Shown piece after piece: positions 9,693 to 34,618 of a DNA stretch of 38,461 nt. The notes under the pieces were generated by a model. That model saw nothing but the letters and a program-made list of their open reading frames with translations. It made no database searches and was not told where the DNA came from. The DNA comes from a virus, in the IMG/VR virus record IMGVR_UViG_3300025083_002754, positions 1-38,461 of that record, one strand, 5' to 3'. The translations under genes and the position numbers were made by a program. Each line of letters starts with the position of its first letter. The stretch's first letter is position 1.

Positions 9693-9700
9693 TATTTATG
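9693..9700 (-). promoter_or_regulatory. Near-consensus late promoter CATAAATA facing left
   Basis: The minus strand reads CATAAATA, one mismatch from the late octamer, back to back with the plus-strand site. The implied start near 9687 leaves a 24-nt leader before ATG 9663, closely matching the arrangement at the other divergent gap (4802-4809). Confidence 0.4.
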
Positions 9701-17439: not shown

Positions 17440-17451
17440 ATTTACTTCTCT

Positions 17452-18129: not shown

Positions 18130-19766
18130 ATAGTTATTGTCCTACTTTGTTCACTTGGTGTATGTCCATACCAATCAGCATGTGCTAATATATAACAGTA
18201 ATCTCCCGGTACATCATGATCTTCAAAATATACCTCGCCGCCAAGTTGTTGTATGAGTTGTGCTACTATTAATCCATAACTGCCTGCTGTGCTATCTACA
18301 CCAGGCTTGTAGCTTTTGCCCAGTATAATTACTGGTAGACCTGTATTTACTGCCTTTTGTGCAAGCAGTGTTGCTTGTTGTAATCTTACATTATGATTAT
18401 GCATAGCTGGATCATATGGTAATTCAAGTTGTTGCGTTAGCCAACTCATCATTAAATTATCCCGTGGATGACAAGGCCCACCATCGCCCCAACCTGGAGT
18501 CATATATGCTGGACTAGTGATTAAGTTATCACACTTTTTAAGCCAAGTCATTATACGATCTGCATTAGTATTAGGCGCCAATCTGTCAGTAATGTCTGAG
18601 ACCCAGTTAGCAAAGTTAATTTTTTGTATGATCCAACTGTTATACATTACTTTTGCCAATTCAGCTTCTTCCCAAGTACCTGAATAAATTGGACTTGGAC
18701 TAAACCGTTTAATTTTTTCCTTTAGCTGATTTAATTGCATACTATTTCCTGGATTATGACCCAGGAACCAACAGTCTGGTTGTCGCAATCCAGCAAGTAC
18801 ATTTCCCTGACTTATTAAAAATGGGCAATAGTATAAATTACAATTTGGATACTCTTTACTAAGTTTACGTATTGTGCCGGGAGAAACTGTACAACCAATA
18901 ATAATAGTCTTATCAGGCACTGCAAATAAATCAAGTGCAGATCTTAAATTAGTATAATCATAATCGCTTGGCACATCTTCAAGACTATTGCCCCAATTTT
19001 TTGTGGGAGTGTCAACACAAATCCAAATAGTATCTGCTTCAGCTACCATGCTATATGTGTCAGAAATTTTATGTGTATCATAACTGCATGTTCTTATACC
19101 GTTATTTTGTAATATTGTTTCTAATGCACTCCCAATATTACCTGTGCCCACGATACCAACATCAAACTTATGATTACCAATAGCACGATGATAAAGCTCA
19201 ATATCATTGTAGTAATATTTTTGTACTACACGTATATCTTCAGGACTAAGATCAGTGTATTTCTTGTCAGATCTATTTTCTGCTATTGAACTTCCATAAT
19301 GACTAATAATACTGTTAATATGATTTACTACATCATCATGTGGATCTCCGTGTATCCATTTAAGGTTATCTAAATCAATATACCATTCAATATCATGATT
19401 GAATAAAAAATGTTCTTGACGAGTGAAATGCATATCAGTCTCATTAAAACTATTTGGTCTCAGTGTGTCAATCCAGTAGTCCACTGATGTATCTTTATTA
19501 TTTTCAACTGCTCGCTCCATTTGACCATTAAACCGATTTTTAGGATGTCGTATAAACGTAAATCCTCGGTAACCCGTCATTGTGGAAGTATCATGTTTTT
19601 CTAACGAGTATCCCCACTCTTTAGCTTGATACATAAATGACGTATTGGCATTGCGCCAAATTGGCACAAAGAATAGCTTCCACTTATGATTAACCCATAT
19701 GCGGTCTTCCCACATATCCATATCAGTCCAATGATCTATAACATACTGTGCATCATATACGGTCAT
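18102..19766 (-). CDS. Fusion: sulfotransferase domain + UDP-glucose/GDP-mannose 6-dehydrogenase
   Basis: Residues 1 to about 197 look like a Sulfotransfer_2-type domain: FFVPIWRNANTSFMY (32-46) as the 5'-phosphosulfate loop, FIRHPKNRFNGQMER (71-85) as the 3'-phosphate segment, and a final YYYNDIELYH. Residues 200-554 are a nucleotide-sugar dehydrogenase: VGIVGTGNIGSAL (203-215), ICVDTPT (249-255), GCTVSPGTI (291-299), EEAELAKVMYNSWIIQKINF (366-385) with the catalytic Lys, and GGPCHPRDN with nucleophile C432. GKSYKPGVDSTAGS is the C-terminal NAD-domain signature. One uninterrupted frame encodes both. The dehydrogenase would oxidise a UDP- or GDP-sugar to a uronic acid. The start ATG overlaps the previous stop by 4 nt (ATGA). 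Confidence 0.85.
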   Translation of the reverse strand: MTVYDAQYVIDHWTDMDMWEDRIWVNHKWKLFFVPIWRNANTSFMYQAKEWGYSLEKHDTSTMTGYRGFTFIRHPKNRFNGQMERAVENNKDTSVDYWIDTLRPNSFNETDMHFTRQEHFLFNHDIEWYIDLDNLKWIHGDPHDDVVNHINSIISHYGSSIAENRSDKKYTDLSPEDIRVVQKYYYNDIELYHRAIGNHKFDVGIVGTGNIGSALETILQNNGIRTCSYDTHKISDTYSMVAEADTIWICVDTPTKNWGNSLEDVPSDYDYTNLRSALDLFAVPDKTIIIGCTVSPGTIRKLSKEYPNCNLYYCPFLISQGNVLAGLRQPDCWFLGHNPGNSMQLNQLKEKIKRFSPSPIYSGTWEEAELAKVMYNSWIIQKINFANWVSDITDRLAPNTNADRIMTWLKKCDNLITSPAYMTPGWGDGGPCHPRDNLMMSWLTQQLELPYDPAMHNHNVRLQQATLLAQKAVNTGLPVIILGKSYKPGVDSTAGSYGLIVAQLIQQLGGEVYFEDHDVPGDYCYILAHADWYGHTPSEQSRTITIWKNNLEKH

Positions 19767-20920
19767 TTAAAAATTCCTTGTGCGAGAGCAATCTGTTGCC
19801 TTTTATACCCACCAAAATAATGATTGTAGTTGTATTCAAGTACATCGTTTAACTCATCATCATAATACTCTAGAGTAAATTCCCTGGCTGCTAACAGTCC
19901 AGCATCCATTCTATCCTTTGCGTTTAGTATACTATCATAGGATTCATCAATCCATTTATCAAATGTTTTAAATCCCATCCTATGTAACTCACTTAGTGAG
20001 TTAGCATCTCCTAGAATAATAAAAGGGTTACCCATTACTATACTACGGCTCACTTTCTCTGTCAAGAAACTTTTGTTATTGCTGCAATTAAATTCACTTA
20101 CTATTTCAAGTGCACATTGTTCTGATGTAATACCAAGCTGTACTAGCTCTGGAATATCCTGATCATCATTCTTAACACGGTATTGTGGATCTACTGCATC
20201 AGTCTGATATTTAAGAAAGGTTAAATCAATCTCATCATCTTCTAAAAATACATTAAGTTCACTTTTAAAATGTTCCCATCCAAGCTCAACCTCGTTAAAG
20301 TTGTGAAAGGTATATTTTGCTTTATCCATCATTTTTAAACGAAATGCCTGATGCAATGCATATATACGATGTGCACGACTGCGTCTGTTCAACCAAAGGT
20401 AACGATATTTAAAATTACCACTTTTGGGAGTAAACGGAGAAAACTTTTGAAAATCAAAGTATCGATTAAATGGTTCAGTAAACGGAATGGCTGGCCAATC
20501 ATCGTGTTGCTCTAGATCAGTTGTACTACTAGGAGTACTAAACACACTGTGTTCTTTTATACCAAGTTCAGTAACTTTACGATATAACAAATTGTATATG
20601 TCAAGTGTAAGGAAGTTACCGTTATAGGTTAAATGAGTTTCATGTCGGTTACATGTGTTCCATGCATCGCTCATTATGAATACTACTTTTATATCACCAC
20701 AACGTATTTCAGGTAACAAGTGTCCATACTCTTTATCAAAGTTTCCAAAATACTCAATTTGATTAAATGGTATATTATGATCGTTAAATTGCTTGCTTGG
20801 TACATGATAAGGCGTGCCTATCAATAGTATTTGTTTTCTTGGACTTTGTTTAAAAAGCTCTACAACATCATGTCGTAACAAGTACTGTATTGCAATAGAG
20901 TCAGGGTGCAGTGTTGCCAT
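19763..20920 (-). CDS. Putative GT10-like (fucosyltransferase-like) glycosyltransferase
   Basis: The C-terminal third contains FNCSNNKSFLTEKVSRSIVM followed by GNPFIILG (about 276-302), which resembles the nucleotide-binding motif of alpha-1,3-fucosyltransferases (FENSxxxDYxTEK-x-x-AL-x-G-x-VPVV). KYRYLWLNRRSRAHRIYAL (about 171-189) is a basic stretch common to related phage proteins. The N-terminal half has ILLIGTPYH and otherwise no known signature. It would transfer a GDP- or similar activated sugar; a link with the fucose-synthase-like reductase is possible. It overlaps the radical SAM gene by a single base (TAATG). A strong sigma70-like promoter sits inside it at 20037-20065. Confidence 0.6.
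   Translation of the reverse strand: MATLHPDSIAIQYLLRHDVVELFKQSPRKQILLIGTPYHVPSKQFNDHNIPFNQIEYFGNFDKEYGHLLPEIRCGDIKVVFIMSDAWNTCNRHETHLTYNGNFLTLDIYNLLYRKVTELGIKEHSVFSTPSSTTDLEQHDDWPAIPFTEPFNRYFDFQKFSPFTPKSGNFKYRYLWLNRRSRAHRIYALHQAFRLKMMDKAKYTFHNFNEVELGWEHFKSELNVFLEDDEIDLTFLKYQTDAVDPQYRVKNDDQDIPELVQLGITSEQCALEIVSEFNCSNNKSFLTEKVSRSIVMGNPFIILGDANSLSELHRMGFKTFDKWIDESYDSILNAKDRMDAGLLAAREFTLEYYDDELNDVLEYNYNHYFGGYKRQQIALAQGIFK
20037..20065 (-). promoter_or_regulatory. Intragenic sigma70-like promoter TTGACA-17-TATAGT
   Basis: Minus-strand -35 TTGACA (20065-20060) and -10 TATAGT (20042-20037) with a 17-bp spacer, eleven of twelve consensus bases. It lies within the GT10-like gene and would start transcription about 265 nt before the sulfotransferase-dehydrogenase fusion. 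Confidence 0.6.
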
Positions 20921-22140
20921 TATTTTTTCCAGTATTCAGCGTACTCAGGTATTACATCCAGTATACTTTGTTTTCTCAAAATGTCGAGTCTATTTGTTTC
21001 ATCAATAAATTGATCCCACATTGCTGGATCACGTTCATTTTGCATAACATGATCAAGCAAGGCTTGATTGTTTGCTTTTTCCCATTCTGGTGCTGTACTG
21101 TTGTTTAATACGCTACATGCAGCATCATAACCTTTTTGTTTGATTGCTTCAGGCAAATGTATTGCGTCCATGTGTGCAGGTTGGTTTACTTGAATAAGAT
21201 AGGGAAGGCTAATATCCATATCCAGTGTTTGTGTGTATTCATATAAATTAGCCAAGTCCAGCCAGGTTAAACTACTCATTGTACTGTGTACTTGTAGTGT
21301 CCACTGTCCTGGTTTCATTTGCTTTGACCAGTCAATTACTTTTTGTAAGTTGCGTTCCCACTTACTCCATTTACCAGGCCATCTAACATATTCGTTTACT
21401 TCATTGACACCGTCACAACTCATGTTTATATTAAGTCCTTTGAAGTGTTTCCACAAGTCAAATACTTTGTTTTGTACTGCTAACATATTAGTGTTAAACT
21501 GTAAACTGACTTCTGATGCTCGCCCACTATCAACAACACGTTGCAAGAGTTCATAATACTTGGGAACAAATAGTGGTTCGCCACCCAACATATTAATGTG
21601 TTTTATTGTTGGAATAATCTCTTCAAATACACGGTCAAAGTTTGGATGGTTATACCATTCAAAGTTAATTTTTGATACATCTGCTCTCCAAAAATTAACT
21701 TCGGGATTTTTAGTAATATCGTCAGCCCACATACTGCTTGACCAAGGATTGCACATTCTACACTGAATATTACATTTGTTTCCTAGTGTAAGCTCTAGAT
21801 ATTCGATATTAATATTATTGTGTAACTTGTGTTGCTCTTCAGTGTCAAACCATTGGTTCCAACTTTGTCTATAACTAAAGCCACCATTATCTTCTACTAC
21901 CCAGCAACGATTACAAAAGTCATGTTTTTTACCACTTTCAATATCTTTGCGTAACTCACGATGAGGCACTGCATCAAGTAACCCATCTTCACAATCCATA
22001 ATATTTTTGAATGTCCATCCAGCTTCTTTTCCTGGATAGTTCTTGGAATGGAAGTTATAGTTACAACATGGACGAATTTGTCCAGTTGGGTCTATACTTA
22101 AATGATTGTACGGTAAGATGCAGTATGTTTTGGTGTCCAT
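20920..22140 (-). CDS. Twitch-type radical SAM protein
   Basis: The N-terminal part has Cys7, PCC (25-26) and CNRCWVVED (C76, C79), a ligand set for an auxiliary Fe-S cluster placed before the barrel. The radical SAM motif is CNIQCRMC (123-130) after a LELTLGNK strand, followed by MLGGEPL (near 185), the GGE motif that binds the SAM amino group. Family knowledge: proteins of this plan are called twitch-domain radical SAM proteins in databases and most have no known substrate. The Cys spacing (7, 25/26, then C-x2-C, then the triad) is almost identical in the protein at 25659-26942. It ends the long radical SAM block; one base separates it from the NTF2-like gene. Confidence 0.9.
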   Translation of the reverse strand: MDTKTYCILPYNHLSIDPTGQIRPCCNYNFHSKNYPGKEAGWTFKNIMDCEDGLLDAVPHRELRKDIESGKKHDFCNRCWVVEDNGGFSYRQSWNQWFDTEEQHKLHNNINIEYLELTLGNKCNIQCRMCNPWSSSMWADDITKNPEVNFWRADVSKINFEWYNHPNFDRVFEEIIPTIKHINMLGGEPLFVPKYYELLQRVVDSGRASEVSLQFNTNMLAVQNKVFDLWKHFKGLNINMSCDGVNEVNEYVRWPGKWSKWERNLQKVIDWSKQMKPGQWTLQVHSTMSSLTWLDLANLYEYTQTLDMDISLPYLIQVNQPAHMDAIHLPEAIKQKGYDAACSVLNNSTAPEWEKANNQALLDHVMQNERDPAMWDQFIDETNRLDILRKQSILDVIPEYAEYWKK

Positions 22141-22141
22141 G

Positions 22142-22474
22142 TTAGCCCTTGTATGCCCTGATAGAACTTACTTTGTTATTAGTAAATGTTATAACATCTA
22201 CTACATCAATTGCTTCTTCCTTCTCAGGAATATGTATACGTAACTGTGCGCTGACTGTGTGTTCGTTATTTGTCATACCAAGTATTTCAGCTCTTATTCC
22301 TGGTGCACCTTTAAAGATGTTATCATTGGTTTTAATAACCTGATCAAATCCCTTAACACTAACGTCCCAATCAGTGAGCTCAATGTCTTCGTGAAATAAT
22401 GGCTTTAGTTGTTCTACATCATTAATATTCCATGCGTTGAAATATTCATGTGCTAAATTGATTAGATGGTTCAT
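22142..22474 (-). CDS. SnoaL/NTF2-like small protein
   Basis: The 110-residue protein has the look of the SnoaL/NTF2 cone fold: helix AHEYFNAWNINDVEQLKPLF, the strand HEDIELTD, then INNxFKG-type turn and a long C-terminal sheet (TVSAQLRIHI, VDVITFTNNKVSSIRAY). These domains act as isomerases, cyclases or simple ligand-binding partners. I chose ATG 22474 because AAGGA lies 8 nt upstream; a longer start at 22516 would deepen the overlap with the previous gene. It is the only non-radical-SAM gene inside the block, so it may bind the product or intermediate of the neighbouring enzymes. That is inference. Confidence 0.75.
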   Translation of the reverse strand: MNHLINLAHEYFNAWNINDVEQLKPLFHEDIELTDWDVSVKGFDQVIKTNDNIFKGAPGIRAEILGMTNNEHTVSAQLRIHIPEKEEAIDVVDVITFTNNKVSSIRAYKG

Positions 22475-23453
22475 AATTTCTATCCTTATATTTTGTAATG
22501 TAAATGTCTGTACCACAATGACAATGTGTCTTAGGACAAATTACGCTTGTTGGTAAGTCTAACTCTAGTTCTGGATCATACAAGTTACCTACTCGTGGCA
22601 TAACACCACAGCTACCCATATCAATATGTCCTTCACAGTTAATAAAGATACTCTCCATGGGTATTAAACATTTCCAACCCTTGAAGAAGTTTTTACTTTC
22701 TGCTACTAATCTATTACAATTAATAGGCTGTTCGGTTCCGTCACTGTACACTTCCATACTACCCATACCAAGTGCTTTGGCTGGCACATTATATTTAATA
22801 TCTTGCTCTAAGTTAGTTTTCTCTAAAAACTCTTTGTGCTCTGGATTTTTATAATTAAACGGGCGTGTTGTATGACTAAGCTCTTCAAATATTGGCACGT
22901 ATTCAATACGCCAATTGTGCTCATTCATTTCTGTTTTTATTCGTTTACTAAAGTCAATAACTTCGTCCCATGTGGGCTCATGCATCATCATACGCCCACA
23001 CAAGTAGTTAACACGGTCACTTAAAAACTTGTAAATTTCCAAGTAATGGTCGCTGTCAACAAATTCAGGATGGTAACTGGCAACAACATCATCAAAGTAA
23101 TGTACATTCTTTTCCCACCATGCTCGTTTACTACTAAGGTTGGTATTAACAGCAAACTTGACTTCAGTCATTCCGCTTGCTAGTATATGTTCCATTACAG
23201 GCACTAGTGGCTTCCAGTAACAAGGCTCGCCGCCGCTAAAGAATACTTTAAGTCTAGTATAACCTCTACTAAGTTCATAGTCAATTAGTTTAGTTAGTCC
23301 TGCTTTGATAGCTTCAATATCTAAGTTAAGATTACTTCCGTTCCAATTAGACTCATTACAGTATGTACAACGAAAGTTACACAAGTTACTAACTTGCCAA
23401 GTGATGTTTACAAACGGTTCACCGCCTTGTTCAATTCTTATTAATTCACTCAT
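22446..23453 (-). CDS. Radical SAM protein with C-terminal Cys-rich region
   Basis: CNFRCTYC lies at residues 25-32 after VNITWQVSN, with FSGGEPCYWKPL as the GGE motif. The C-terminal third has NCN, KCL, NCEGHIDMGSCG and CPKTHCHC, a SPASM-like set of cluster ligands. Unlike most neighbours, its radical SAM motif is at the very N-terminus, so it belongs to a different subgroup. Start: ATG 23453 overlaps the stop of the B12-type gene by 8 nt (ATGAGTGA); a longer frame upstream runs through that gene's end and is not favoured. A promoter-like site lies inside it at 23256-23284. Substrate unknown. Confidence 0.88.
   Translation of the reverse strand: MSELIRIEQGGEPFVNITWQVSNLCNFRCTYCNESNWNGSNLNLDIEAIKAGLTKLIDYELSRGYTRLKVFFSGGEPCYWKPLVPVMEHILASGMTEVKFAVNTNLSSKRAWWEKNVHYFDDVVASYHPEFVDSDHYLEIYKFLSDRVNYLCGRMMMHEPTWDEVIDFSKRIKTEMNEHNWRIEYVPIFEELSHTTRPFNYKNPEHKEFLEKTNLEQDIKYNVPAKALGMGSMEVYSDGTEQPINCNRLVAESKNFFKGWKCLIPMESIFINCEGHIDMGSCGVMPRVGNLYDPELELDLPTSVICPKTHCHCGTDIYITKYKDRNYEPSNQFST
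23256..23284 (-). promoter_or_regulatory. Intragenic sigma70-like promoter TTGACT-17-TATACT
   Basis: Minus-strand -35 TTGACT (23284-23279) and -10 TATACT (23261-23256), spacer 17 bp. Both hexamers are identical to the intergenic promoter at 36723-36751. It lies in the radical SAM gene, upstream of the NTF2-like gene and the twitch gene that follows. Confidence 0.5.
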
Positions 23454-25659
23454 CCCATTTTCCTTCGCCTTGCCAGTCATATTTAAAACTATAATCGTGA
23501 TAACGTGCCGTTGCAAAGTCTTGTTTAACTTTCCAAAACCATTCTGCGTCAAACGCATTCCACGGATCCTTACCTTTAAAGTTAGGATCGCCTTTCCATG
23601 CTAGTTTCCTAGCACGAGTAGCAGCATTGCTGTTATCACCAAAAAAGTTCATTACTGTATACACTGGTCCAACTGTATCTGGATCTATTATGGTGTTACC
23701 ATCTTGGTCCTGCCAAACATGGTCATTGTATTCGTAATCTGTATCTGTTTGTCTATAATCCCAAGCAAAGTCAGCTTTCCAATGTCCATCGTCTGTAATT
23801 TCAAAATCATAGTTGGCATATAATGGTGCTGCATTTCTGGCACCCCATTCTTCCAATTCCCATTCATAGTTAAATTTTAAGTTTAGTTTATAACCGCCTC
23901 TGGTCCTCCACATTATGTGCAGTAGTGGCCATACTTCGTTTACTAAACTATCTGCAAAATTACTTATGCCTGGCTTGATTATGTCATAATCAAAATCATC
24001 ATTAGGATATTCGATTTCTATTTGCTTTAGTGGATCATTCCATTCAATAGTGTAATGGCGTTCACGTAGATTATGACGAGTAGGTCGGCCAATCTCTGAT
24101 TCGCTCAGTAAGAAGTCAGTAAACATACTAAACGTTTTCATACGTATTAGTTTGTGTGCGATACTCATTTTGTCGTCTTTGGTAATCCAGTGATCATAAT
24201 AATACCATTGTTTTAAATTAAATCTATCAAAGTTTTGACCTACAATAGTATCAACACCAACACTAAAGCCTGTGCCTTGACCAATATTAAGTAATCCTTG
24301 ATTACGTTGCCGCCATAAGAATGTCATACTATCTTCAAACATACGATATGTTTCATTTGGATAGCCAACAATCCAGTTAGTCATTGAAGCAATACCAACT
24401 TTTTTACCATCACGGAAGTTGGCTTCCATTTCTGGCACTGTAACTTTTTTATCCATGGCATCTAATACTTCTTGTGCACCACTTTCTGTACCATAGTTAA
24501 GAGCTTCACATCCACTGTCACGAAGTATTTGCATATATTCTAAATCCATGCGTCCGTCACATCTGGAATAACCACTCCAGTGTATTTTTATACCACTGGC
24601 AATTACACCTTCAGCAAAGGCACGTAGCTCATTTAGATTACCATTTACTAAACTGTCAACAAAGTAAAAAACATTTGTTCCATATGTATTATGCATATGA
24701 ATTACTTCATCCAGTGTACTAACACTTGTACGCTGTCTGTATTTGTAATAGTGTGTTTCCTCACAGAATGTACATTTAGCAATGCATCCTCTACTAATAG
24801 CAAGTAATGCTCCATTTGGAAAACTGTATTTGTCCATGGGCATGTTGCTGTAATCAGGATAAGGAAGTTCATCTAAACTAACACGTTCATTTTCTGCTTG
24901 ACGTAATATTAGTGTTTTTCCGTTGTCAGATTTTTCGCCTTCAACTTCTAGTTTCTTTTCGTGTTGCATCAAAATGTTTAACAGTGGGCGTTCTCCCTCA
25001 CCGTTGACAACATAATCATAAATGTCTTTTGGCTTAAAATAACTATAGTGTGTACTAGGACCACCTACAATAATTTTAATGTTAGGTAACCGTTCTTTAA
25101 TTGCTTTAATAATATAATCAGTAGGCTCTTCATTACAGTAGTAAAGGCTTACACCCAAAAAGTCTGGCGCAAACTCTACCATTTGATCTACTGCCTTATC
25201 AAGTATTGGCTTTACATATTCATGTAACTCGTTCCAGTATTGTTCGCCTATCCAGTGCCAATCACGTGGGCCGTCCCAAGGGTCATAATGAATATCCCAG
25301 GCATCATCTCCGCCAAAAACGTCCCAAAATGCCCTGTATGCTTCTACATTTAAGTCAAAACACTTTGTTTCAAACCCTGCTGTATTGGTTACACCTGCAA
25401 GTTTAGCAATACCATAATGCGGAAAACCTGGATCCCATTCCGGACACATAAGCAGACATAACTTAGTTTGTCGACTGATATTATACTCAATCTCAACAGG
25501 AGCCAGACCTTTTTGTGGTCCTTTACTCCATTTTTCCATAATCTTCTGTGTAGCAGTGCTGCGGTCTTCTAAATAAGTACCCTCTTCCCTAGTAGGCGGG
25601 TCTCTTCGTTTTTTCTGCTGTAGTCTGTACCATGCAATACCTTGATCTTCTTGACTCAT
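23446..25659 (-). CDS. B12-binding-type radical SAM protein (737 aa)
   Basis: About residues 60-235 match the cobalamin-binding Rossmann domain of class B-type radical SAM enzymes (KLCLLMCPEWDPGFPHYG at its start, FLGVSLYYCNEEP, IIVGGPSTHYSYF, VVNGEGERPL), though the DxHxxG motif that makes lower-axial contact with B12 is absent, as it is in many members. The radical SAM core follows with ISRGCIAKCTFC (Cys 292, 296, 299), then WSGYSRCDG and GTESGAQEVLDAM. The last 250 residues are not assigned. Class members perform methylations at unreactive carbons and other rearrangements. It is joined to neighbours by 1 nt (TAATG) upstream and 8 nt downstream. Confidence 0.88.
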   Translation of the reverse strand: MSQEDQGIAWYRLQQKKRRDPPTREEGTYLEDRSTATQKIMEKWSKGPQKGLAPVEIEYNISRQTKLCLLMCPEWDPGFPHYGIAKLAGVTNTAGFETKCFDLNVEAYRAFWDVFGGDDAWDIHYDPWDGPRDWHWIGEQYWNELHEYVKPILDKAVDQMVEFAPDFLGVSLYYCNEEPTDYIIKAIKERLPNIKIIVGGPSTHYSYFKPKDIYDYVVNGEGERPLLNILMQHEKKLEVEGEKSDNGKTLILRQAENERVSLDELPYPDYSNMPMDKYSFPNGALLAISRGCIAKCTFCEETHYYKYRQRTSVSTLDEVIHMHNTYGTNVFYFVDSLVNGNLNELRAFAEGVIASGIKIHWSGYSRCDGRMDLEYMQILRDSGCEALNYGTESGAQEVLDAMDKKVTVPEMEANFRDGKKVGIASMTNWIVGYPNETYRMFEDSMTFLWRQRNQGLLNIGQGTGFSVGVDTIVGQNFDRFNLKQWYYYDHWITKDDKMSIAHKLIRMKTFSMFTDFLLSESEIGRPTRHNLRERHYTIEWNDPLKQIEIEYPNDDFDYDIIKPGISNFADSLVNEVWPLLHIMWRTRGGYKLNLKFNYEWELEEWGARNAAPLYANYDFEITDDGHWKADFAWDYRQTDTDYEYNDHVWQDQDGNTIIDPDTVGPVYTVMNFFGDNSNAATRARKLAWKGDPNFKGKDPWNAFDAEWFWKVKQDFATARYHDYSFKYDWQGEGKWDE

Positions 25660-26942
25660 TACGTTAGAACCTCAAACGCAATATTGTGGAAAGTATCATA
25701 CCATTTGGTGCCACGATGACGGTCCATAGTGTCACTAAACTCTCTAAAATGCTGTCGTTTTTCAGCACAATATTCTTCACTTAGTGAATTATCTTCTAGT
25801 CTTTTAATTGCTTGTTCTATCCCATGTTGATACCAGATATTTGGTACATTGTGACTAGGCTCGTATGACTTTAATGCCGCAACTGCTTTTGCACGTATCT
25901 CAGGTTGTACGATCCTGACATCCAAATAACTAGGACTATCTAACATAATTGGGCTCCAAATGTAAAGTCTGTTCTTTTCTTTACTATCATACCAGCTACG
26001 GTGATTGTGTACCCAATCAAGTACTTGTGGTATAGCATCGTAGTTATAAGTTTGAAACACTGTGTAATGTTTGATCTTCCAACTTTGAGGAAATGCATCG
26101 TATATTTTTAAAATATTTCTTTCAATGTTTTCCCATTTAGTTGGGTACCTAATATATTCGTTTTTATCGTAAATATGATCAATACTAATCTGTATCTCGC
26201 CATTTTTAAAGCGTGACATTGTATTATAAAATATCTCGTTCCACTGTGTTAGGTTTGTTGTAAGTGCAATATAACAGTCTGTGTTGCCACTGTCAAGTAT
26301 CATTTGCATGATTTCAATATTACGTTTGATTAGAGTTGGTTCGCCTCCAGTTAGGTATAGTCGTTTAAGTTTGGGTGCAAGTTTTTTAATACTCTTAACA
26401 AACTCATCACTTTCCCACCAACGCCAGTTAGCTTGTTCATCTAGCTTTAACTCATGATCCCATTCTTTACGTAACCAGAACGGCATATTATCATCTTTAC
26501 GCTGTATAAGACGTCTTTCATCTGCAACTCTATCACTACTAAGTGCCCAGCAACTATTACAACGTAGGTTACAAAAATTTCCCAAACGAAGTTCTAAGCT
26601 CTGTGGCAATGGGGGGTTGCTAGTTTGATATTCTTTAGGCACAGCCCAATCTTTAAGCTCACCAAATGCACTTTGTCTTGAGCTTTGGATACCACTATCT
26701 TCTAGTTTCCAACATACATCACATGCTGACGGTCTTTCCCCCTTGAGCATTTGTTTACGAACGTTCACCATGTAGTCACTATTCCAAATCTCTTCAACAC
26801 TATGAGTACCAAAGTTTAGTTCTTGTCCATCACCGCCAGTTGCGTGGATATTTTCATTAATACTACAACACAACTTAACACTGCCTTCAGTGTTACTGTT
26901 TAAGTTAGTAAACGGGTATAAACAATATGTATTACTGCTCAC
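25659..26942 (-). CDS. Twitch-type radical SAM protein
   Basis: The N-terminal auxiliary ligands are Cys7, CC (25-26) and CDVCWKLED (C74, C77). The core motif is CNLRCNSC (124-131), with YLTGGEP (near 222) for SAM. It aligns position by position with the protein at 20920-22140 and so is its closest paralogue in the window. The start is GTG at 26942-26940 with AGGAG 7 nt upstream, overlapping the previous gene by 11 nt. The barrel is followed by a helical C-terminus without more Cys clusters. It contains a sigma70-like promoter at 26268-26296. Substrate unknown. Confidence 0.9.
   Translation of the reverse strand: MSSNTYCLYPFTNLNSNTEGSVKLCCSINENIHATGGDGQELNFGTHSVEEIWNSDYMVNVRKQMLKGERPSACDVCWKLEDSGIQSSRQSAFGELKDWAVPKEYQTSNPPLPQSLELRLGNFCNLRCNSCWALSSDRVADERRLIQRKDDNMPFWLRKEWDHELKLDEQANWRWWESDEFVKSIKKLAPKLKRLYLTGGEPTLIKRNIEIMQMILDSGNTDCYIALTTNLTQWNEIFYNTMSRFKNGEIQISIDHIYDKNEYIRYPTKWENIERNILKIYDAFPQSWKIKHYTVFQTYNYDAIPQVLDWVHNHRSWYDSKEKNRLYIWSPIMLDSPSYLDVRIVQPEIRAKAVAALKSYEPSHNVPNIWYQHGIEQAIKRLEDNSLSEEYCAEKRQHFREFSDTMDRHRGTKWYDTFHNIAFEVLT
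26268..26296 (-). promoter_or_regulatory. Intragenic sigma70-like promoter TTGACA-17-TATATT
   Basis: Minus-strand -35 TTGACA (26296-26291) and -10 TATATT (26273-26268), spacer 17 bp. It lies within a radical SAM gene, about 600 nt before the start of the B12-type gene. Confidence 0.55.
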
Positions 26943-28227
26943 GATATTCTCCTATACACAATAATTCTGGCAGTGCTTCCTGCCAATTTTCATTTCTAAT
27001 ACGGTCCCAACGTTCAAATTCTTTAATCGTATCTGGCAACTCACTGGTGCGGTCTGTTGTATTCATAAAGTTTAATAGTCCCTCTGCGCTACTAACAAAC
27101 TGATTAGCAGGCCAATGATCAGGAATAAAGTTTTCCTGTTTGTCTAACCATGCAAGATGTTCCTCCCATCGTTGGGTTACTTTTATTTTGTAATCATTTG
27201 GCAATGCTTGCATACTCAAGAACTTTGGGTCCAGCAAGTTATTTAACCTTATCTCACCTGGCGGAATAAATCCTTTTCTTACCCAATCTTCATGAAAGTC
27301 TGGGAAATGTAGTACGTTCATTAAACTAAGTGTAGGGCACAAATCAAACTCAATATGTGTAAGTTCTGGATCATCTAGCATTGCTTGTCTATTTGCTTCA
27401 ATGTCTGACCAAATAGTACCTTTGCGTATATACTCACCATGTGTTCCCATTGCGTCTAAGCTAGCACTTACTTTAACTTGCTTAAATTGTTTCCACAAAT
27501 CAAATACATGTTGTTTTTTATATGTAAGCTGGCTAAAGTTTGTAGTATATAACACACTAACATTTTGTGCATGACCAGTTTCAACCCAGTGGTTCATAAT
27601 TTCCCAGTGCATGTCTGTTATTAGTGGTTCTCCACCTGCCCAGTATACTTCTTCTACTGTATCCAAATACGGGCGTAGTTCTTCTAGGAAGCCTGGTTTA
27701 TTTTTAAGTTGTATAAATTTTTGCTCTGCAACATCTTTAGGCACAGCGCCAAACTCTTTAACAAAATCATCAAACCAACTGGTACTAAATGTTGGGCTAC
27801 AACTACGGCAACTCATATTACACAAGTTACTAAAACGGAAGTCCATGTATGTAAGATTGATATCATCATATTGCCCGTCCGCATGTGTATCTTTTGTACG
27901 CCAGAACTGATGTGCAAAACGATTGTTCATATTTTTACGAAGTGTATATGCGTTACTATCGTTTTCAAGTTCATAACAACGGTTACATGCATTACTAGCT
28001 TTACCATTTAGCATGTTTGTACGAAGCTTTTTAGCTAGGTCACTGTTCCACAACTCTTCAAGAGTATGTGTATTAGTATTTCCATAATCGTTACCGTCAT
28101 TATGTTCAGCTAAACAACAAGGGAAAGTTCTACCATTTGGCCATACATGCATATGTATCCATGGTGCCATGCAGAATACTTTACTGTCAGTTAATAGTGG
28201 ATTAGGCGATTCTATATCTTGGGTCAT
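26932..28227 (-). CDS. Twitch-type radical SAM protein
   Basis: Auxiliary ligands are Cys19 in VFCMAPWIHMHVWPNG, PCC (37-38) and CNRCYELEN (C81, C84). The core motif is CNMSCRSC (136-143) and the GGE motif is WAGGEPL. The next gene upstream (28202-29488) shares DSKxFCMAPW, HxxxDTHADG and FxNLCNxxC, so the two are tandem duplicates that have diverged. ATG 28227 overlaps the upstream stop by 26 nt. The conserved CMAPWxxxHxxPxGxxFPCC entry matches a large phage and bacterial twitch family with no known reaction. Confidence 0.9.
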   Translation of the reverse strand: MTQDIESPNPLLTDSKVFCMAPWIHMHVWPNGRTFPCCLAEHNDGNDYGNTNTHTLEELWNSDLAKKLRTNMLNGKASNACNRCYELENDSNAYTLRKNMNNRFAHQFWRTKDTHADGQYDDINLTYMDFRFSNLCNMSCRSCSPTFSTSWFDDFVKEFGAVPKDVAEQKFIQLKNKPGFLEELRPYLDTVEEVYWAGGEPLITDMHWEIMNHWVETGHAQNVSVLYTTNFSQLTYKKQHVFDLWKQFKQVKVSASLDAMGTHGEYIRKGTIWSDIEANRQAMLDDPELTHIEFDLCPTLSLMNVLHFPDFHEDWVRKGFIPPGEIRLNNLLDPKFLSMQALPNDYKIKVTQRWEEHLAWLDKQENFIPDHWPANQFVSSAEGLLNFMNTTDRTSELPDTIKEFERWDRIRNENWQEALPELLCIGEYREQ

Positions 28228-29488
28228 CTGGCATTATCTCATATTTTTTTAATTGTTCTAACTCTGGGTATGCTTTATATGCATCATTGTTTCTAATCGT
28301 ATCAAATTCTTTTGTGTTCCACAGAAACTCGTTAAATTTTGTATCAAAGGTATTGTCAGCATACATAAACTTAATAATACCCTGTAGGTTATTTGAATCA
28401 TGTTGCCAGTCTGGGTTTTGTTTTTTGCGTAGATCTTCAATCCATTCAATATGTTTTTCCCACTTTTTGGCTACTTGTCTTTTATAATCTTCTGGCAAGA
28501 TTTGTATACTTAAACGTTCAGGATGTGTTAAGATAGTTAAGTTTAAACTGTTAACACTAACTAGTCCTTCTTCAATCCATTCACGATGAAAGTCTGGCCA
28601 ATGCAGTACATTGTAAGCACTAATAGTACTACTAATAAAGAACCTAGTATCAGGACACTCAGCTATCATTTCACGCCGATTCTTTACAACATCTGTCCAG
28701 ATAGTATCTTTACGCAAGTATTCTGCACGTTCCCAATTATCATCCAAACTGGCACCAACGTTAACATTTGTAAACTTATTCCAGTAGTCAAACACTCGCT
28801 TTTTACCCAAATGTGTTTTAGTAAAGTTGGTTGTATAACTAATATTTACATCAGTGTTGCCCCACTCTAACCAAGTATCTAACATTTTATAATGCTCTGC
28901 TGTAATTAATGGTTCGCCTCCAGCAAAGTATGCGTGGCGTACTTCCTGAATTGCAGGCAGTGCATCGTCCCAGAATGTTTTAGGTAACTCTAATAGTGCA
29001 GGCTCTTTGTAGTTCCATGCCTTTTTAGCATCGTTAATCCAACTACTACTAAACTGTGGACCACAACTTAAACAGCGTAGGTTACACAAGTTATTAAATC
29101 TTACGTCCCAGTAGTAAAAGCGTGGGTCATCATGCGATCCATCTGCATGTGTGTCTTTAACACGATCAAACATATCGCCAAAGTCTTCATTTAGACTTAT
29201 ACGCAGTGTTCTAATATCTGCATCTTTTTCCTGTTGATAGCAACGTCTACATGCCCGGCTGGGTTTATCTGCCATCATATTACGGCGCAACTCTCGCATT
29301 TGTTCAGTGTTCCAAAGTTCACCAATGCTATTGTCGTTTAAATTTCCCATAAATTCGTCGGAAAGATTATTGCTTTCAGGAAGTATTACGCAACAAGGAA
29401 ACGCCTGTCCACTTGGCCAAAAATGCATAGTGACCCAAGGCGCCATACAAAAAAACTTACTATCGTTTAGTAAATGGTCTTCATTCAT
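28202..29488 (-). CDS. Twitch-type radical SAM protein (tandem paralogue)
   Basis: With the start at ATG 29488 the protein has 428 residues, Cys14 in FFCMAPWVTMHFWPSG, PCC (32-33), CRRCYQQEK (C80, C83) and the core CNLRCLSC (134-141); the GGE motif is YFAGGEPL. The alternative start 36 nt upstream gives a Lys-rich extension not seen in its paralogue at 26932-28227, and the chosen ATG gives an 8-nt overlap (ATGAATGA) like other junctions here. It is the upstream copy of the tandem pair. Confidence 0.9.
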   Translation of the reverse strand: MNEDHLLNDSKFFCMAPWVTMHFWPSGQAFPCCVILPESNNLSDEFMGNLNDNSIGELWNTEQMRELRRNMMADKPSRACRRCYQQEKDADIRTLRISLNEDFGDMFDRVKDTHADGSHDDPRFYYWDVRFNNLCNLRCLSCGPQFSSSWINDAKKAWNYKEPALLELPKTFWDDALPAIQEVRHAYFAGGEPLITAEHYKMLDTWLEWGNTDVNISYTTNFTKTHLGKKRVFDYWNKFTNVNVGASLDDNWERAEYLRKDTIWTDVVKNRREMIAECPDTRFFISSTISAYNVLHWPDFHREWIEEGLVSVNSLNLTILTHPERLSIQILPEDYKRQVAKKWEKHIEWIEDLRKKQNPDWQHDSNNLQGIIKFMYADNTFDTKFNEFLWNTKEFDTIRNNDAYKAYPELEQLKKYEIMPDDPRYRIA

Positions 29489-31169
29489 CAGCGGTTTCTT
29501 CTTCATCAAATTTTCCAAATGCACCTACTAAATTATCTTCACTGTACATTCTGGTAGGTATATTTCTAATCTTTCTATAGTTAATCAAGCTCTTTGCTAG
29601 TCCAGGATGATGCCAAACAAAATCATCATCCCAATGAAAATCAACTGGTTCATCTTTTAATAGTTCTTCCTTGCATTTACGATTATATTCCATCTCAGAA
29701 ATATCATATAGTGTAGCACACATATCATAATATTCAACCATCTCAGGAAAAATCTCCTTGAAGTCTGTATTACGTCTTGCATCAGTTGATTTAATAAACA
29801 AGTACCAGTTACGTCTAGCATCATCAATTTCTCTTGGTTCAAGATATGCATCTGTTTGTACACGGTTACGTTTGTCACAAATAGTTTTCCACATTGCTTG
29901 TACTCTAGACCATGCACGTACTTCTTCATCGCTAAAGTACATATGATATTGTTTGTTGTGATCCTCTTTTGGATACTTATGCCAGTTTGCTTTCCACTTC
30001 CATCGATCCATAAAATCTGTTGTTAAGTCAATATACTCATTAAATGCGTCAGGAAGTCCAACTAGTGTCCAATGGTTAGGCTCAGTACAATGAGGAATAT
30101 CAAACATAATCTTTGGATATTCCATACCAGGTCTCTGAAACTTACGGCGCCATTCCAGTATTTTCTCAAGGAAGCTGATGTAGCTTGTTACACACATAAT
30201 GTTATATGTGTTCATAATCTGGATTCCATTAAAGTCATCAACATGATGGTGACCCATCTTGTCCATAATTGCATTAATGTTTGCTTCAAACAATCCCAAG
30301 TCTAAACCACTACGTGTATATGATGCTCTATCGCCCCAACTTTCAATACTACTAAAAATCTGGAAACGTTTAATTTTCTCATCGTGCAACAGCTCATTAA
30401 CCTGGTCACACATTCTCTCTACTAGTTTAGTTTTGATATTTAAGTTGGTATTAATTTGCAAAACCATTTCACTACACTCGCCTGTTTGTTGTAGTTTCTT
30501 TAAAAACTTCCAAACGTTTTGTTGTAGTAATGGCTCGCCGCCTGTAATGCGAATTACCTTAAGTGTTTTACGTAAGTAAGGCCACCATTTCCAAAAAGCG
30601 TCAACATACGGGTTATCATCCTCTGCATAGATTTTTTCGTGCTGTACTTGTAAGTGTGGTGCTTCAGGGAAAAGCCCTTCCTTGTCCATCTCTTTTTTCC
30701 ATGCACTACTTGCTTTAGGATGACAATAGGCACACTTCATGTTACATTCGTTACCAAAACTAATTTCCAAGTATGTTGGTCTATAGTTATGATCCCATCC
30801 GTTTTCCAAGATCATTTCATGTGCATCTGGTGTAAGTAACAGTTCGTTTTTACTTTTGATAACACGGTCACTAATTTGATTGTCGTCAATATCTTCAACA
30901 CGCCAACAATAATTACACTCATCAGGACGTTCGCCGTTAAGCATTTGTTTACGTCTAGCAATCTTATGTTTTGTATTGTGCAATGCACTTGGATTGTCTT
31001 TAATTTCTTCTAGTGGTATTTTATGTGGTAGCGGATGATAACAACTGTGTGTGTGGCCGCTTTGTAGATACAACGTACTTGTAAGAAATTTTGCAGTACA
31101 CATGCTATCACAGCCGTATACTTTTTTCATATTTTCTCGTTCGTCTAGGTAATCTATATTCTTATACAT
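29481..31169 (-). CDS. Twitch-type radical SAM protein (large form, 562 aa)
   Basis: The N-terminal region has CDSMC (C20, C24), a single Cys at HSCYHPLPHKIPLEEI and CNYCWRVED, then the core CNMKCAYC (142-149) and RITGGEPLL. It shares with the gene at 31162-32631 the features HxxPxHKIxxExIxDNPxxLHNT and NEYRLxP-free long C-terminus, so they form a second tandem pair. I chose ATG 31169, giving the 8-nt overlap ATGTATAA, rather than the frame start at 31202. The C-terminal 200 residues are rich in Trp, Lys and Asp and have no further known domain. Confidence 0.88.
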   Translation of the reverse strand: MYKNIDYLDERENMKKVYGCDSMCTAKFLTSTLYLQSGHTHSCYHPLPHKIPLEEIKDNPSALHNTKHKIARRKQMLNGERPDECNYCWRVEDIDDNQISDRVIKSKNELLLTPDAHEMILENGWDHNYRPTYLEISFGNECNMKCAYCHPKASSAWKKEMDKEGLFPEAPHLQVQHEKIYAEDDNPYVDAFWKWWPYLRKTLKVIRITGGEPLLQQNVWKFLKKLQQTGECSEMVLQINTNLNIKTKLVERMCDQVNELLHDEKIKRFQIFSSIESWGDRASYTRSGLDLGLFEANINAIMDKMGHHHVDDFNGIQIMNTYNIMCVTSYISFLEKILEWRRKFQRPGMEYPKIMFDIPHCTEPNHWTLVGLPDAFNEYIDLTTDFMDRWKWKANWHKYPKEDHNKQYHMYFSDEEVRAWSRVQAMWKTICDKRNRVQTDAYLEPREIDDARRNWYLFIKSTDARRNTDFKEIFPEMVEYYDMCATLYDISEMEYNRKCKEELLKDEPVDFHWDDDFVWHHPGLAKSLINYRKIRNIPTRMYSEDNLVGAFGKFDEEETADE

Positions 31170-32631
31170 TGTATTTGTCTTTCCATTCGTGGTATTGTTC
31201 ACTAAACTCAGGGAAGGTATCTAATATACTAGTATCTCTTCGTCTATCGTGATCATCAAAAAATCTTACAAAGTTTTCTTCAGCTTCTTCACGTTGCTCA
31301 TCAGTATCAAATCCTTGTTTCATAAATTCAATACTGCGATCAAATCGCTCAATCTGGTGTGGTTTAAACCCTACCCAACGGCTATCACGATGCTTGTCAA
31401 TATTTGCTTTCATAAATTCAAGTGCCTCATCTGCATAATGCCAATGGCTTTCTGGTGTTAGTTGTAAACTCTGCCAAAGCGGATAACGCAACATTGGTGT
31501 ATCAATAAACACTTTGTGGTGTCCATACACTACAATGTTTCCGTCAGCATCTCGTCTACTTTTAGTTACATTATGTATACGCTGTAGTTCTAGTATGCCT
31601 TCAAGTAACTTTTTAATACTTGGCAAACTAAGCATGTTGAATGTGACAATAAACGTAACAAGTCCTTCATCTACTCTGGTTAGATAATTATTTACGTTAT
31701 TCCACATACGGTCAAAATCTAGTCCGTGCCGCATATACTCTGCTTGATCGCCCCAACCGTCTACACTAACAAATGCTCTAAAGCGTTTCAGTTTGTTGTA
31801 CTCGCTGATAAAACTTACTTTGTCTACAAACTTGTCCCATAACTTATCAGGTACACTAGCGTTTGTAGTGACAGCCATTTCAAGGTCTGGACGACCGTTA
31901 TCAATTACATAGTCAAGTACACGGAATGTATTTTTATCCATAAGCGGCTCACCGCCTGTCATACGGAAGTTCTGAAGTTTAGGGTATAGTTCAGGCCACC
32001 ATTCCCAAAACGCTTCTACATATGGATTATGTTCACGGTTTGGAATAGGATACTGTCCAATTTGCTTGAAATAGTCAATACTATTATGAGGAACAATAGT
32101 ATCATAAGGACCATTCTGCTCAATATCTTCTGCCCACTTACTACTTAAATGTGGACTACAATAACTACATGCTAAGTTACAAGCGTGGTTAAAGTTAACT
32201 TCCATGAAGCGAGGTTCAATGTCGCCATCAGCACCTTTTTCCAATACATCATCCCATCCAGCTTGTGCCCAAGGCTCACTACTGCGATAATGTCTATCAC
32301 TGTTAAAGGATCTATCCATCTTTTCAATATTCCAACAGTAGCTACACCCATCAGGCTGTTCGCCGTCTAGCATCATCTGCCGTTGTTCTTTTTTCTGTGG
32401 AGTATTGTGTAACCCTTTTGGGTTATCTGTAATATTTTCAACTTCAATTTTGTGAATAGGAGGAAGGAAACAACTATTAGTTGTTCCGTTGGTTAAGTGA
32501 ACACTAGTCCACAACCACTTAGCCATACACATGGTAGGGCTAATTTTATCTAGTTTTGGTTTTACTAACTCTGCTGCTGTTTCCGGATCTGGATCAAGCT
32601 CATAGTTTACAATTTCTACGTCATCGCTCAT
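31162..32631 (-). CDS. Twitch-type radical SAM protein (large form, 489 aa)
   Basis: Cys35 in TMCMAKWLWTSVHLTNG, Cys54 (single, where other members have CC), CSYCWNIEK (C96, C99) and the core CNLACSYC (151-158) are seen, with RMTGGEPLM as the GGE motif. It is the first radical SAM gene of the block and the tandem partner of 29481-31169. Its ATG lies only 5 nt after the -10 box of a consensus sigma70-like promoter (32637-32665) and has no Shine-Dalgarno sequence, so translation from a leaderless message is expected. If that were wrong, a later Met at residue 34 would remove the acidic N-terminal arm. Confidence 0.88.
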   Translation of the reverse strand: MSDDVEIVNYELDPDPETAAELVKPKLDKISPTMCMAKWLWTSVHLTNGTTNSCFLPPIHKIEVENITDNPKGLHNTPQKKEQRQMMLDGEQPDGCSYCWNIEKMDRSFNSDRHYRSSEPWAQAGWDDVLEKGADGDIEPRFMEVNFNHACNLACSYCSPHLSSKWAEDIEQNGPYDTIVPHNSIDYFKQIGQYPIPNREHNPYVEAFWEWWPELYPKLQNFRMTGGEPLMDKNTFRVLDYVIDNGRPDLEMAVTTNASVPDKLWDKFVDKVSFISEYNKLKRFRAFVSVDGWGDQAEYMRHGLDFDRMWNNVNNYLTRVDEGLVTFIVTFNMLSLPSIKKLLEGILELQRIHNVTKSRRDADGNIVVYGHHKVFIDTPMLRYPLWQSLQLTPESHWHYADEALEFMKANIDKHRDSRWVGFKPHQIERFDRSIEFMKQGFDTDEQREEAEENFVRFFDDHDRRRDTSILDTFPEFSEQYHEWKDKYNV

Positions 32632-32636
32632 ATATT

Positions 32637-32665
32637 ATTATAACACACTCTCTATCTTCAGTCAA
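32637..32665 (-). promoter_or_regulatory. Sigma70-like promoter TTGACT-17-TATAAT at head of radical SAM block
   Basis: Minus-strand -35 TTGACT (32665-32660) overlaps the stop of the upstream gene, and -10 TATAAT (32642-32637) is a perfect match with a 17-bp spacer. The predicted start falls on the ATG at 32631-32629. It is the only intergenic promoter seen for the eight-gene radical SAM block. Confidence 0.8.
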
Positions 32666-33638
32666 TAGTATCTTGTACTTGGTCTTCACGTACCATTGCA
32701 CCAAGTCTACTTGGGTTACGATAAACTGTTTTCCAGAAACGTGAACCTTCAGCACCAACATCTGCTATCTCTAAATCAAGTGTACTACGTAACTCTTTAC
32801 CCAGTTCTATAGTTTTTGCTTTTAGTTTATCTTTATCCCAACTGTATCCAGTACGTGGACATAGCTCTACACCATCAGCAAACTGTGGTGCTAGTTCATC
32901 TTCAAAGTATTTTGTTAACCAATCAAAGTCCCTAACATTTTTCCAATCCCATTCATGCCGTAACACATTTGTCATATGACAACCAAGTCGTGCACCATAA
33001 ATTGCCCAAAGACCGTTGGGTGCATCTTCACCAATGGTCATCCATACCATTAAACGACGATAATTTTCACGATAGATGTTTTTAATTTTAGCAGGATCAA
33101 CAACGTCACCGTTCTCTAGTCCCATCTTAACACCTTCTCTAAATCCAGCACGCCAGGCTTGTAGTGGGCTACCATTATTATATACCCAACTATGCCAGTT
33201 ATTCATTTGAATGTATTGGATATTCCAACAAAAGTCTACTTGTGCTCTTTTGTCTGTTGCTGGTGCCGCTTCATGTGTACGCATACGATTAACAACGTCA
33301 ACTGGCCACATTTTGATGCCACCATTACCATATACTAATCCGTTAACTTTATTTTTTGCAGCAAAGCTAATAACATGATTTTGTTCAATTTTATCCATGT
33401 CTAACTCAACATTAAAAAAATCATCGTTTACTATATTATCAGCATCAATGGTAATAAAACGTTCTGTTTCACTCATTGCGGCTGCTGCTTTGTGTGCGGC
33501 ATCACTACCCCATACACCATGGCTTCGTTTAGCCCATGGACATTTATCCAACAAGTCTGCATAATTTTCATCAGCATTTGGTTCGTCGTAACTGATGTAA
33601 ATTATATCAAACTCATTAATACTAACCATATTTGACAT
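32658..33638 (-). CDS. GT-A-like glycosyltransferase with DAD motif (326 aa)
   Basis: The order of features is that of the 240-residue protein at 2379-3101: FDIIYISYDEPNADENYADL, then RFITIDADNIVNDDFF with D65-A-D67, then YGNGGIKMWPVDVV. It has an extra C-terminal stretch of about 80 residues, charged and with an Arg-rich end, that the paralogue lacks. GT-A fold and donor binding by the DxD are inferred. ATG 33638 has GAGG upstream and overlaps the previous stop by one base. It lies between the tail-side genes and the radical SAM block. Confidence 0.62.
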   Translation of the reverse strand: MSNMVSINEFDIIYISYDEPNADENYADLLDKCPWAKRSHGVWGSDAAHKAAAAMSETERFITIDADNIVNDDFFNVELDMDKIEQNHVISFAAKNKVNGLVYGNGGIKMWPVDVVNRMRTHEAAPATDKRAQVDFCWNIQYIQMNNWHSWVYNNGSPLQAWRAGFREGVKMGLENGDVVDPAKIKNIYRENYRRLMVWMTIGEDAPNGLWAIYGARLGCHMTNVLRHEWDWKNVRDFDWLTKYFEDELAPQFADGVELCPRTGYSWDKDKLKAKTIELGKELRSTLDLEIADVGAEGSRFWKTVYRNPSRLGAMVREDQVQDTID

Positions 33639-34618
33639 TATTTTATTTCCTCATAGTTAAATGTAATATTTCTGCCCGCTTCTCCAACAAGCATTTGAGA
33701 CGTTTTTAGATCTGCGTTGGTCTTGATAGTTGTTTCTCTACCCCATCCTAGTTCAGTCTTTGGCAATGTAAAACTGCCCAGTAGTTCATGTGGTGAATCT
33801 CCAACAATATAAAAAGTAAGATCACTATAAATTTTTACTTCTTCAGGATCTTGGAAATTACTACGCACAATCCAACCACTGTTTGCTTCACTAAGTGTAA
33901 ACACGGCATCTTTGTCGTCTCTAATTTTAACCATATTACGCTTAGTAACTTTACGCCTGTTGTAGTCTAGTGTAACATAGGTTGTTTTCTTTTTCAAGCC
34001 ATAACTTTTAAATACTCGACGGGTTAACACATCAATGTCACCCAGTGCTACTTTAGTTGAAAGGTCATATAAATCAAACGTAGCAACACCATCATTGATT
34101 AAATCAATAGGGTCAATCTCAATTGTTTTGTATAGATATGATGGGTTATCCTTTGCAACGATATAAAAATATAGTGTAGTATTGTTTTCGTTATGCGCTT
34201 GGCTAAACTTTTTGTTAACATTCCTACCAACCATTTTAAGTACAGTATCACTACTAATATTAATTTCTAGCATCATGCTTTCAATATATGTAATGATATT
34301 GATTTCTCTATCAACAGTATTTGGTACTTCTACAATTTTACTAAGTTGATCTTCTTCAGCTTTGATACGTAAACTATCCGACTTAGCCATAATAAACGTA
34401 CCACTTGGCGTATCGTTAACAATATACTTGCGTGGATTTAGATGCCCCATCAAAATTTCAGCCGCAGTATTATCCTCAGTGAGTAAAACGCTGTACCCAC
34501 CGTCCTTAAATTTATTTCCTACGCTGTATATTTCTCCTGACCATTCGTCATAGAATACATAGTACTTAGGAAGCGGCTTTTCGCCTACTATTGATATTAA
34601 CTTGGGCTCTGTATTCAT
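33638..34618 (-). CDS. Hypothetical protein (326 aa), possibly structural
   Basis: I do not recognise this protein. It is rich in beta-strand patterns with alternating hydrophobic and charged residues, has no Cys and no membrane segment, and repeats the theme DLxFYIVGD/TLYFYIVAKD, suggesting two similar beta domains (about residues 140-240 and 240-326). That look and its position between the tail-fibre-like genes and glycosyltransferases suit a virion or baseplate component, but this is weak inference. Its start overlaps the glycosyltransferase upstream by 53 nt, unusually deep; ATG 34618 is the only start near the N-terminus and has no clear ribosome binding site. Confidence 0.6.
   Translation of the reverse strand: MNTEPKLISIVGEKPLPKYYVFYDEWSGEIYSVGNKFKDGGYSVLLTEDNTAAEILMGHLNPRKYIVNDTPSGTFIMAKSDSLRIKAEEDQLSKIVEVPNTVDREINIITYIESMMLEINISSDTVLKMVGRNVNKKFSQAHNENNTTLYFYIVAKDNPSYLYKTIEIDPIDLINDGVATFDLYDLSTKVALGDIDVLTRRVFKSYGLKKKTTYVTLDYNRRKVTKRNMVKIRDDKDAVFTLSEANSGWIVRSNFQDPEEVKIYSDLTFYIVGDSPHELLGSFTLPKTELGWGRETTIKTNADLKTSQMLVGEAGRNITFNYEEIK

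Follow-up and report, generated by a model that had tools for sequence, protein, structure and literature searches.

An Ordered Array of N-Terminal Twitch Radical SAM Genes, Linked to Tail and Glycosyltransferase-Like Genes in T4-Like Phages, as a Candidate Glycan Decoration System

A 38,461-nucleotide stretch of viral DNA, IMG/VR record IMGVR_UViG_3300025083_002754 and probably from a marine T4-like phage (the window, meaning this stretch at its full length), carries on its minus strand, read from position 32631 down to 20920, eight radical S-adenosylmethionine (SAM) open reading frames (ORFs) and one small SnoaL/NTF2-like ORF, nearly all of which overlap or abut their neighbors (Table 1; genes are named by their lower coordinate). 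Our best explanation, held with about even confidence, is that this array decorates a glycan, most likely that of a tail protein. An initial annotation of the window had placed these nine genes correctly, as ORF and Pfam analyses confirmed, and its further radical SAM gene at the window start is also real; its view that the block is of phage origin and has no established job was supported. It had proposed a multi-step modification of a peptide, cofactor, tail protein, or sugar. The multi-step part stands, but the list of targets was too vague, because the array is tied to a block of tail and glycosyltransferase genes, to nucleoside diphosphate (NDP)-sugar genes and, in other contexts, to glycosyltransferase-like genes, all of which narrows the substrate range.

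Matches to Pfam Radical_SAM and/or SPASM were obtained for all eight radical SAM ORFs of the array, and the CX3CX2C motif was present in all nine radical SAM ORFs of the window. The profile searches that the annotation had suggested, against twitch, SPASM, and B12 families, assigned six genes to NCBIfam NF033640 (N_Twi_rSAM, N-terminal twitch) at 256 to 377 bits, above the cutoff of 170 bits and over nearly the full model length; 22446, 23446, and 3-1088 did not reach that cutoff. Six N-terminal auxiliary cysteine motifs are thereby counted, the five originally reported and that of 29481, which had been called merely comparable and is a full family member. The other two array genes are an STM4011-like gene, 22446, under its family cutoff (48.3 versus 200 bits), and the gene described as B12-binding-like, 23446, which does combine PF02310 with PF04055 and which scored below the cutoff of every named B12 radical SAM family in NCBIfam (the best were BchE, 110.7 of 481 bits, and PhpK, 104.4 of 600). 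Gene 22446 is 88 to 91% identical to several orthologues, with a ratio of nonsynonymous to synonymous change (dN/dS) of 0.03 to 0.05, and probably starts at an internal ATG near 23453, because most orthologues are about 331 to 349 amino acids long.

The array enzymes look functional. The three SAM-cluster cysteines and four auxiliary cysteines are invariant in 212 of 212 nonredundant viral N-twitch proteins; exactly four auxiliary columns are invariant and a fifth is about half occupied, which argues for one extra cluster (twitch) and not two (SPASM). For all eight radical SAM genes of the array, dN/dS was 0.04 to 0.08 against the related locus L002 (84 to 94% amino acid identity), values that are approximate because synonymous sites in this comparison have changed about once or more each. 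Over 13.4 kb, a further IMG/VR contig (L001) shows 99.985% identity, and none of its genes is disrupted. No NF033640 match above the cutoff was found in 14 control genomes, and this, together with orthologous arrays in dozens of contigs and purifying selection, argues that the array is not a chance assemblage. Absence of the block from all relatives and the presence of disabled genes, which the annotation had named as grounds for abandoning the idea, were both looked for, and neither was seen.

A scan with 31162 found 122 viral relatives, and a tree of the array proteins resolved clades A, B, U1, C, D, and E. About 60 IMG/VR loci, chosen by homology and not independent of one another, display the order A-(B/U1)-C-(C)-D-(C/E), visible in whole or in part within the stretch fetched, on contigs of up to 328 kb. 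Clade A, the type of 31162, comes first in nearly all arrays, and adjacent twitch genes overlap in 143 of 162 pairs. Conserved clades and conserved order imply that the paralogues split before these phages diverged. Of the two tandem duplications proposed in the annotation, one stood: 26932 groups with 28202 in the tree (support, 0.976) and, on that basis, is a later tandem duplicate. Genes 29481 and 31162, by contrast, are by their phylogeny old separate lineages and not a local duplication, because each has its own orthologues in other phages. The concentration of twitch genes that had been singled out is real but not unique, with up to 16 N-twitch matches per record among relatives and earlier reports of such clusters (PMC5332604 and PMC7029224).

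The T4-like marker gp23, the major capsid protein, was present in four of the five records longer than 250 kb and in record G004; the window is too short to contain it. A 67.8-kb record (G003, the record of locus L006) is largely collinear with the window, has no counterpart of 23446, and carries an orthologue of 3-1088 (73% identity) that opens a further nine-gene radical SAM array, so that the sugar cassette of that phage is flanked by arrays on both sides. The ninth gene of the window probably starts a second array, cut by the window end. Recent capture of the arrays from a host was considered and rejected, as N-twitch matches at an E value of ≤1e-30 occurred in only 1 of 289 Alphaproteobacteria and in 4 of 199 genomes of the phylum of G011, a metagenome-assembled genome (MAG) titled Neomarinimicrobiota, and the G011 matches lie on gp23-bearing contigs. 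In G011 there are two such contigs, of 153 and 335 kb, with the tail/array block (loci L085 and L086); because gp23 is on the same contigs, they are probably phage DNA binned into the MAG.

Upstream of the arrays, a block of protein families recurs in the order c7-c5-c3-c4-c2-c2-(c13, c14, or c8)-c1. Family c16, like c5, matches virion structural or tail fiber PHROGs. The family profile of c2 matches glycogenin-1 (E value, 1.5e-4 over 104 positions), and c1 has weak Protein Data Bank (PDB) matches to SunS, TarP, and ppGalNAcT, with an invariant DxD-like D65/D67. Loci were also collected with c3 and c1 as baits, so that their selection did not depend on the array. Among 47 nonredundant c1 loci with at least 6 kb of downstream sequence, c2 lay upstream in 44 and an N-twitch gene lay downstream in 32, most often directly after c1. 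These counts indicate that the tail and glycosyltransferase block is constant and that the array occupies a fixed slot as an optional module. Loci that have neither arrays nor sugar genes still keep the glycosyltransferase-like core next to the tail genes. Among the first 85 loci examined, 81 had a member of a glycosyltransferase-like cluster within three genes of a twitch gene, the labels coming partly from weak matches. Gene 36760 encodes a probable tail protein with Gly-Tyr repeats (AYGYGYGYGYGYGYG), whose length differs between close relatives and which distant relatives lack.

On the other side of the array, the sugar gene region encodes a UDP-sugar dehydrogenase, C- and other methyltransferases, a sulfotransferase, two epimerases, a DegT aminotransferase, a cupin, a ribulose-phosphate epimerase, an SIS isomerase, and a carbamoyltransferase. 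Between them lies c6, for which no informative Pfam or PDB match was found. Within the sugar region, positions 5591 to 6994 hold an apparent fusion, judged by eye and with no Pfam match, whose N-terminal part resembles a sugar nucleotidyltransferase and whose C-terminal part resembles a phosphotransferase. Elsewhere, an amidinotransferase-like gene with a weak ADI match (c29; L044:8955-9944) stands near arrays in a few loci and could provide a sugar amidino-transfer step.

Table 1. Features of the window, in the order in which the minus strand is read
Coordinates	Strand	Feature	Basis or remark
37886..38461	-	Probable tail fiber/virion structural protein (c5), cut by window end	PHROG virion structural/tail fiber matches for full-length L001 copy
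36760..37884	-	Probable tail structural protein (c3)	Weak match to PA5oct-like jumbo phages
36349..36696	-	115-amino-acid constant protein between tail and glycosyltransferase genes (c4)	In 68/85 loci
35447..36355	-	GT8 (glycogenin)-like, copy 1 (c2)	Tandem pair in most loci
34566..35450	-	GT8 (glycogenin)-like, copy 2 (c2)	Family profile vs glycogenin-1
33638..34618	-	Constant protein (c13), no family assigned	Recurs in upstream block
32658..33638	-	Probable GT-A-fold glycosyltransferase (c1), constant neighbor	AlphaFold2 pLDDT (predicted local distance difference test), 89.6
31162..32631	-	N-twitch radical SAM, clade A, first array gene	NF033640, 339.5 bits
29481..31202	-	N-twitch radical SAM, clade B	NF033640, 256 bits
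28202..29524	-	N-twitch radical SAM, clade C, first copy	NF033640, 353.6 bits; N-terminal SPASM Pfam
26932..28227	-	N-twitch radical SAM, clade C, second copy	NF033640, 377.1 bits
25659..26942	-	N-twitch radical SAM, clade D	NF033640, 300.2 bits
23446..25659	-	B12-binding radical SAM protein, optional in relatives	PF02310, 38.3 bits; PF04055, 52 bits
22446..23453	-	STM4011-like radical SAM, no N-terminal twitch	Open frame extends to 23558
22142..22516	-	SnoaL/NTF2-like small protein (SnoaL_2)	PF12680, 5.3e-12
20920..22140	-	N-twitch radical SAM, clade E	NF033640, 306 bits
19763..20920	-	Glycosyltransferase-like protein, uncertain family (c6), follows array	Homologues in 51/85 loci
1289..19766	Both	NDP-sugar and decoration genes	Largely collinear in G003
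3..1088	-	Radical SAM gene, first of probable second array cut by window end	PF04055; later Cys-rich region

Twitch genes also stand beside glycosyltransferase-like genes outside this setting. In the cultured Vibrio phages K566 and K567 (OZ196521 and OZ196593), four twitch genes lie among two GT8 genes, recognized at the Pfam level, and one GT4-like gene, and by eye a fifth adjoins another GT4-like gene. These phages share with the window the clustering of N-twitch genes with GT8 or GT8-like genes, in a smaller version that also includes GT4-like genes; they differ in that their twitch proteins are only about 23% identical (tblastn) and no conserved tail block was seen. The K566 stretch from 140000 to 189000 (L117) is also annotated with NAD salvage genes, a ribonucleotide reductase, and a PagP-like lipid A acylation protein. 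A literature search, which did not cover subscription papers or preprints, found no paper on K566 or K567. In four further loci (L075, L077, L078, and L080) and in L087, from a bacterial MAG, clade A genes follow unrelated glycosyltransferase-like genes, as judged by eye.

Timing and cofactor supply were considered from gene layout. The minus-strand genes from 38461 to 11713 run without a gap longer than 63 bp, and 16 of 56 c5 genes and 10 of 45 c7 genes have the T4-type late motif TATAAATA close to their start; together these make late read-through into the block plausible. Two of only three TATAAATA motifs, at 4796-4803 and 9684-9691 on the plus strand, lie in short gaps between divergent genes, 5 to 6 bases ahead of both plus-strand transcription units of the window (genes 4809 and 9698), and resemble T4-type late promoters for nearly leaderless messages. 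A general scan for promoters and terminators gave counts near or modestly above those of shuffled sequences and is not used as evidence. Some relatives encode, within the array, a short 5'-methylthioadenosine/S-adenosylhomocysteine (MTA/SAH) nucleosidase (PF01048, 1.9e-13; PDB relatives; EMEA and ISD motifs kept), and in some a SAM synthetase lies just past the array end; by record, the nucleosidase occurs in 6 of 28 and the synthetase in 5 of 28. MTA/SAH nucleosidases cleave 5'-deoxyadenosine, the radical SAM by-product. A-type iron-sulfur (Fe-S) carriers are encoded in 6 of the 28 records, including five of the six longer than 130 kb, and IscU in two. These cofactor-supply genes of relatives, none of which is in the window, argue for heavy radical SAM use.

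In the model that we favor, T4-like phages express a glycan module late in infection, and the array is the part of it responsible for decoration. The two glycogenin-like GT8 proteins and the GT-A-fold c1 would build a core glycan, for which the acceptor on the virion would most likely be a tail or baseplate protein encoded in the operon itself, and the NDP-sugar genes would supply activated sugars. The radical SAM enzymes would then alter sugar C-H positions by oxidation to a ketone (for later transamination), epimerization, or deoxygenation, and the B12 enzyme 23446 may carry out C-methylation; with each paralogue performing one step, the outcome would be a variable surface sugar. The radical SAM sugar enzymes BtrN, DesII, AprD4, and GenK perform C-H chemistry on sugars or aminocyclitols, some of them with twitch domains. 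They serve as a working model but belong to another family: the auxiliary domain of BtrN follows the barrel, and the fold match between AprD4 and 31162 is weak (E value, 1.9e-3). A bolder version, in which a viral assembly line of up to 16 or 17 radical enzymes, served in some relatives by its own SAM synthetase, nucleosidase, and Fe-S carriers, places novel sugars on the tail fiber late in infection, is judged less likely than not.

Several observations weigh against the glycan model. The strongest doubts concern the assignments of c1, whose fold match is weak (E value, 5.6e-4; TM score, about 0.3), and of c2, which is GT8 at the profile level only, single members having no Pfam GT8 match; the genes that fill the slot in array-free phages; and the family itself, since we know of no characterized N-twitch enzyme. 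Many c1-bearing phages have no array, and their slot genes are not clearly sugar genes (Asp hydroxylase, desaturase, and Thy1), so that slot position alone is no proof of glycan work. Families c6, c9, and c13 have no assignment, and the SAM synthetase and nucleosidase are absent from most records. Solitary twitch genes elsewhere in jumbo contigs mostly adjoin uncharacterized genes, and they were discarded as a pointer to substrate. The AlphaFold2 model of 31162 (pLDDT, 91.5) has anSME, SuiB, MoaA, BlsE, and viperin as PDB neighbors; it matches the peptide-modifying anSME and SuiB as well as the small-molecule enzymes MoaA and BlsE and so did not discriminate between substrate classes.

The same radical SAM sugar chemistry could be aimed at the host envelope, remodeling lipopolysaccharide or capsule against superinfection or against virions sticking to debris. 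This is how glycosyltransferases in pelagimyophage islands (PMC7029224) and jumbo phages (PMC7824862) have been read in print, and the window carries typical O-antigen sugar genes. We nonetheless consider it unlikely, given that the array sits within a tail operon that is probably late, that the glycosyltransferase-like core keeps to tail genes with or without arrays and sugar genes, and that no O-antigen flippase, polymerase, exporter, or polyprenyl transferase was found in the window. Protein modification akin to that of ribosomally synthesized and post-translationally modified peptides (RiPPs), introducing cross-links, epimerizations, or oxidations into a tail fiber such as the Gly-Tyr repeat of 36760 or into c4 or c8, would suit the peptide enzymes anSME and SuiB as best fold neighbors, the small and constant c4, and the position of the array after the fiber gene. 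The Gly-Tyr repeats, however, are confined to the closest lineage and were rejected as a general substrate; c4 and c8, which contain little cysteine and show no leader-plus-variable-core pattern, were rejected as RiPP precursors; the window proteins yielded no RRE/PqqD domain, in a search in which very short ORFs were not exhaustively examined; and the constant partners look like glycosyltransferases. We regard this explanation as decidedly improbable. That the array forms an auxiliary metabolic set with no connection to the tail genes, producing a cofactor, lipid, or secreted metabolite, is more improbable still, even though radical SAM enzymes often make cofactors and BchE- and hopanoid-type enzymes are among the B12 radical SAM families: there is no complete pathway nearby, the order behind the tail genes is fixed in dozens of contigs, and the linkage to glycosyltransferase-like genes is repeated.

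Radical SAM clusters in marine T4-like phages have been known since 2017 and 2020 and are not explained in those reports (PMC5332604 and PMC7029224). TARA_ERS488813_N000010, a 183-kb T4-like genome, encodes 12 radical SAM proteins as well as an A-type Fe-S carrier (Nishimura 2017, PMC5332604), and the available text of that paper lists such genes in this and related marine T4-like viruses as Fe-S-related auxiliary genes, giving no gene order, no tail or glycosyltransferase linkage, and no SAM-recycling genes. The pelagimyophage host recognition cluster is a hypervariable tail fiber island with GT8, sugar genes, and radical SAM cassettes (Zaragoza-Solas 2020, PMC7029224); the cassettes are treated there as variable additions with no role given, and the window array shares this island-type setting. 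A jumbo phage survey makes no mention of radical SAM (PMC7824862), and 261 viral "ahbD" calls from the Baltic Sea were termed speculative by their authors (PMC9301287); N-twitch proteins may lie behind such calls. In the literature search described above, no functional account of these arrays was found. The six window genes share with NF033640 the auxiliary cysteine motif before the barrel, but the name of that family carries no function, and ordered paralogue arrays are a feature of these T4-like phages.

Radical SAM genes of marine viruses, often counted without a role, appear here as a tail-linked system that has a set order, is under selection, and includes glycosyltransferase-like genes and cofactor recycling. 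The system is found in uncultured large phages and, in reduced form, in two Vibrio phages that have been cultured. If the glycan reading is true, these phages would be a large and so far unused source of radical enzymes that modify sugars, and would add a new level at which virion surfaces vary.

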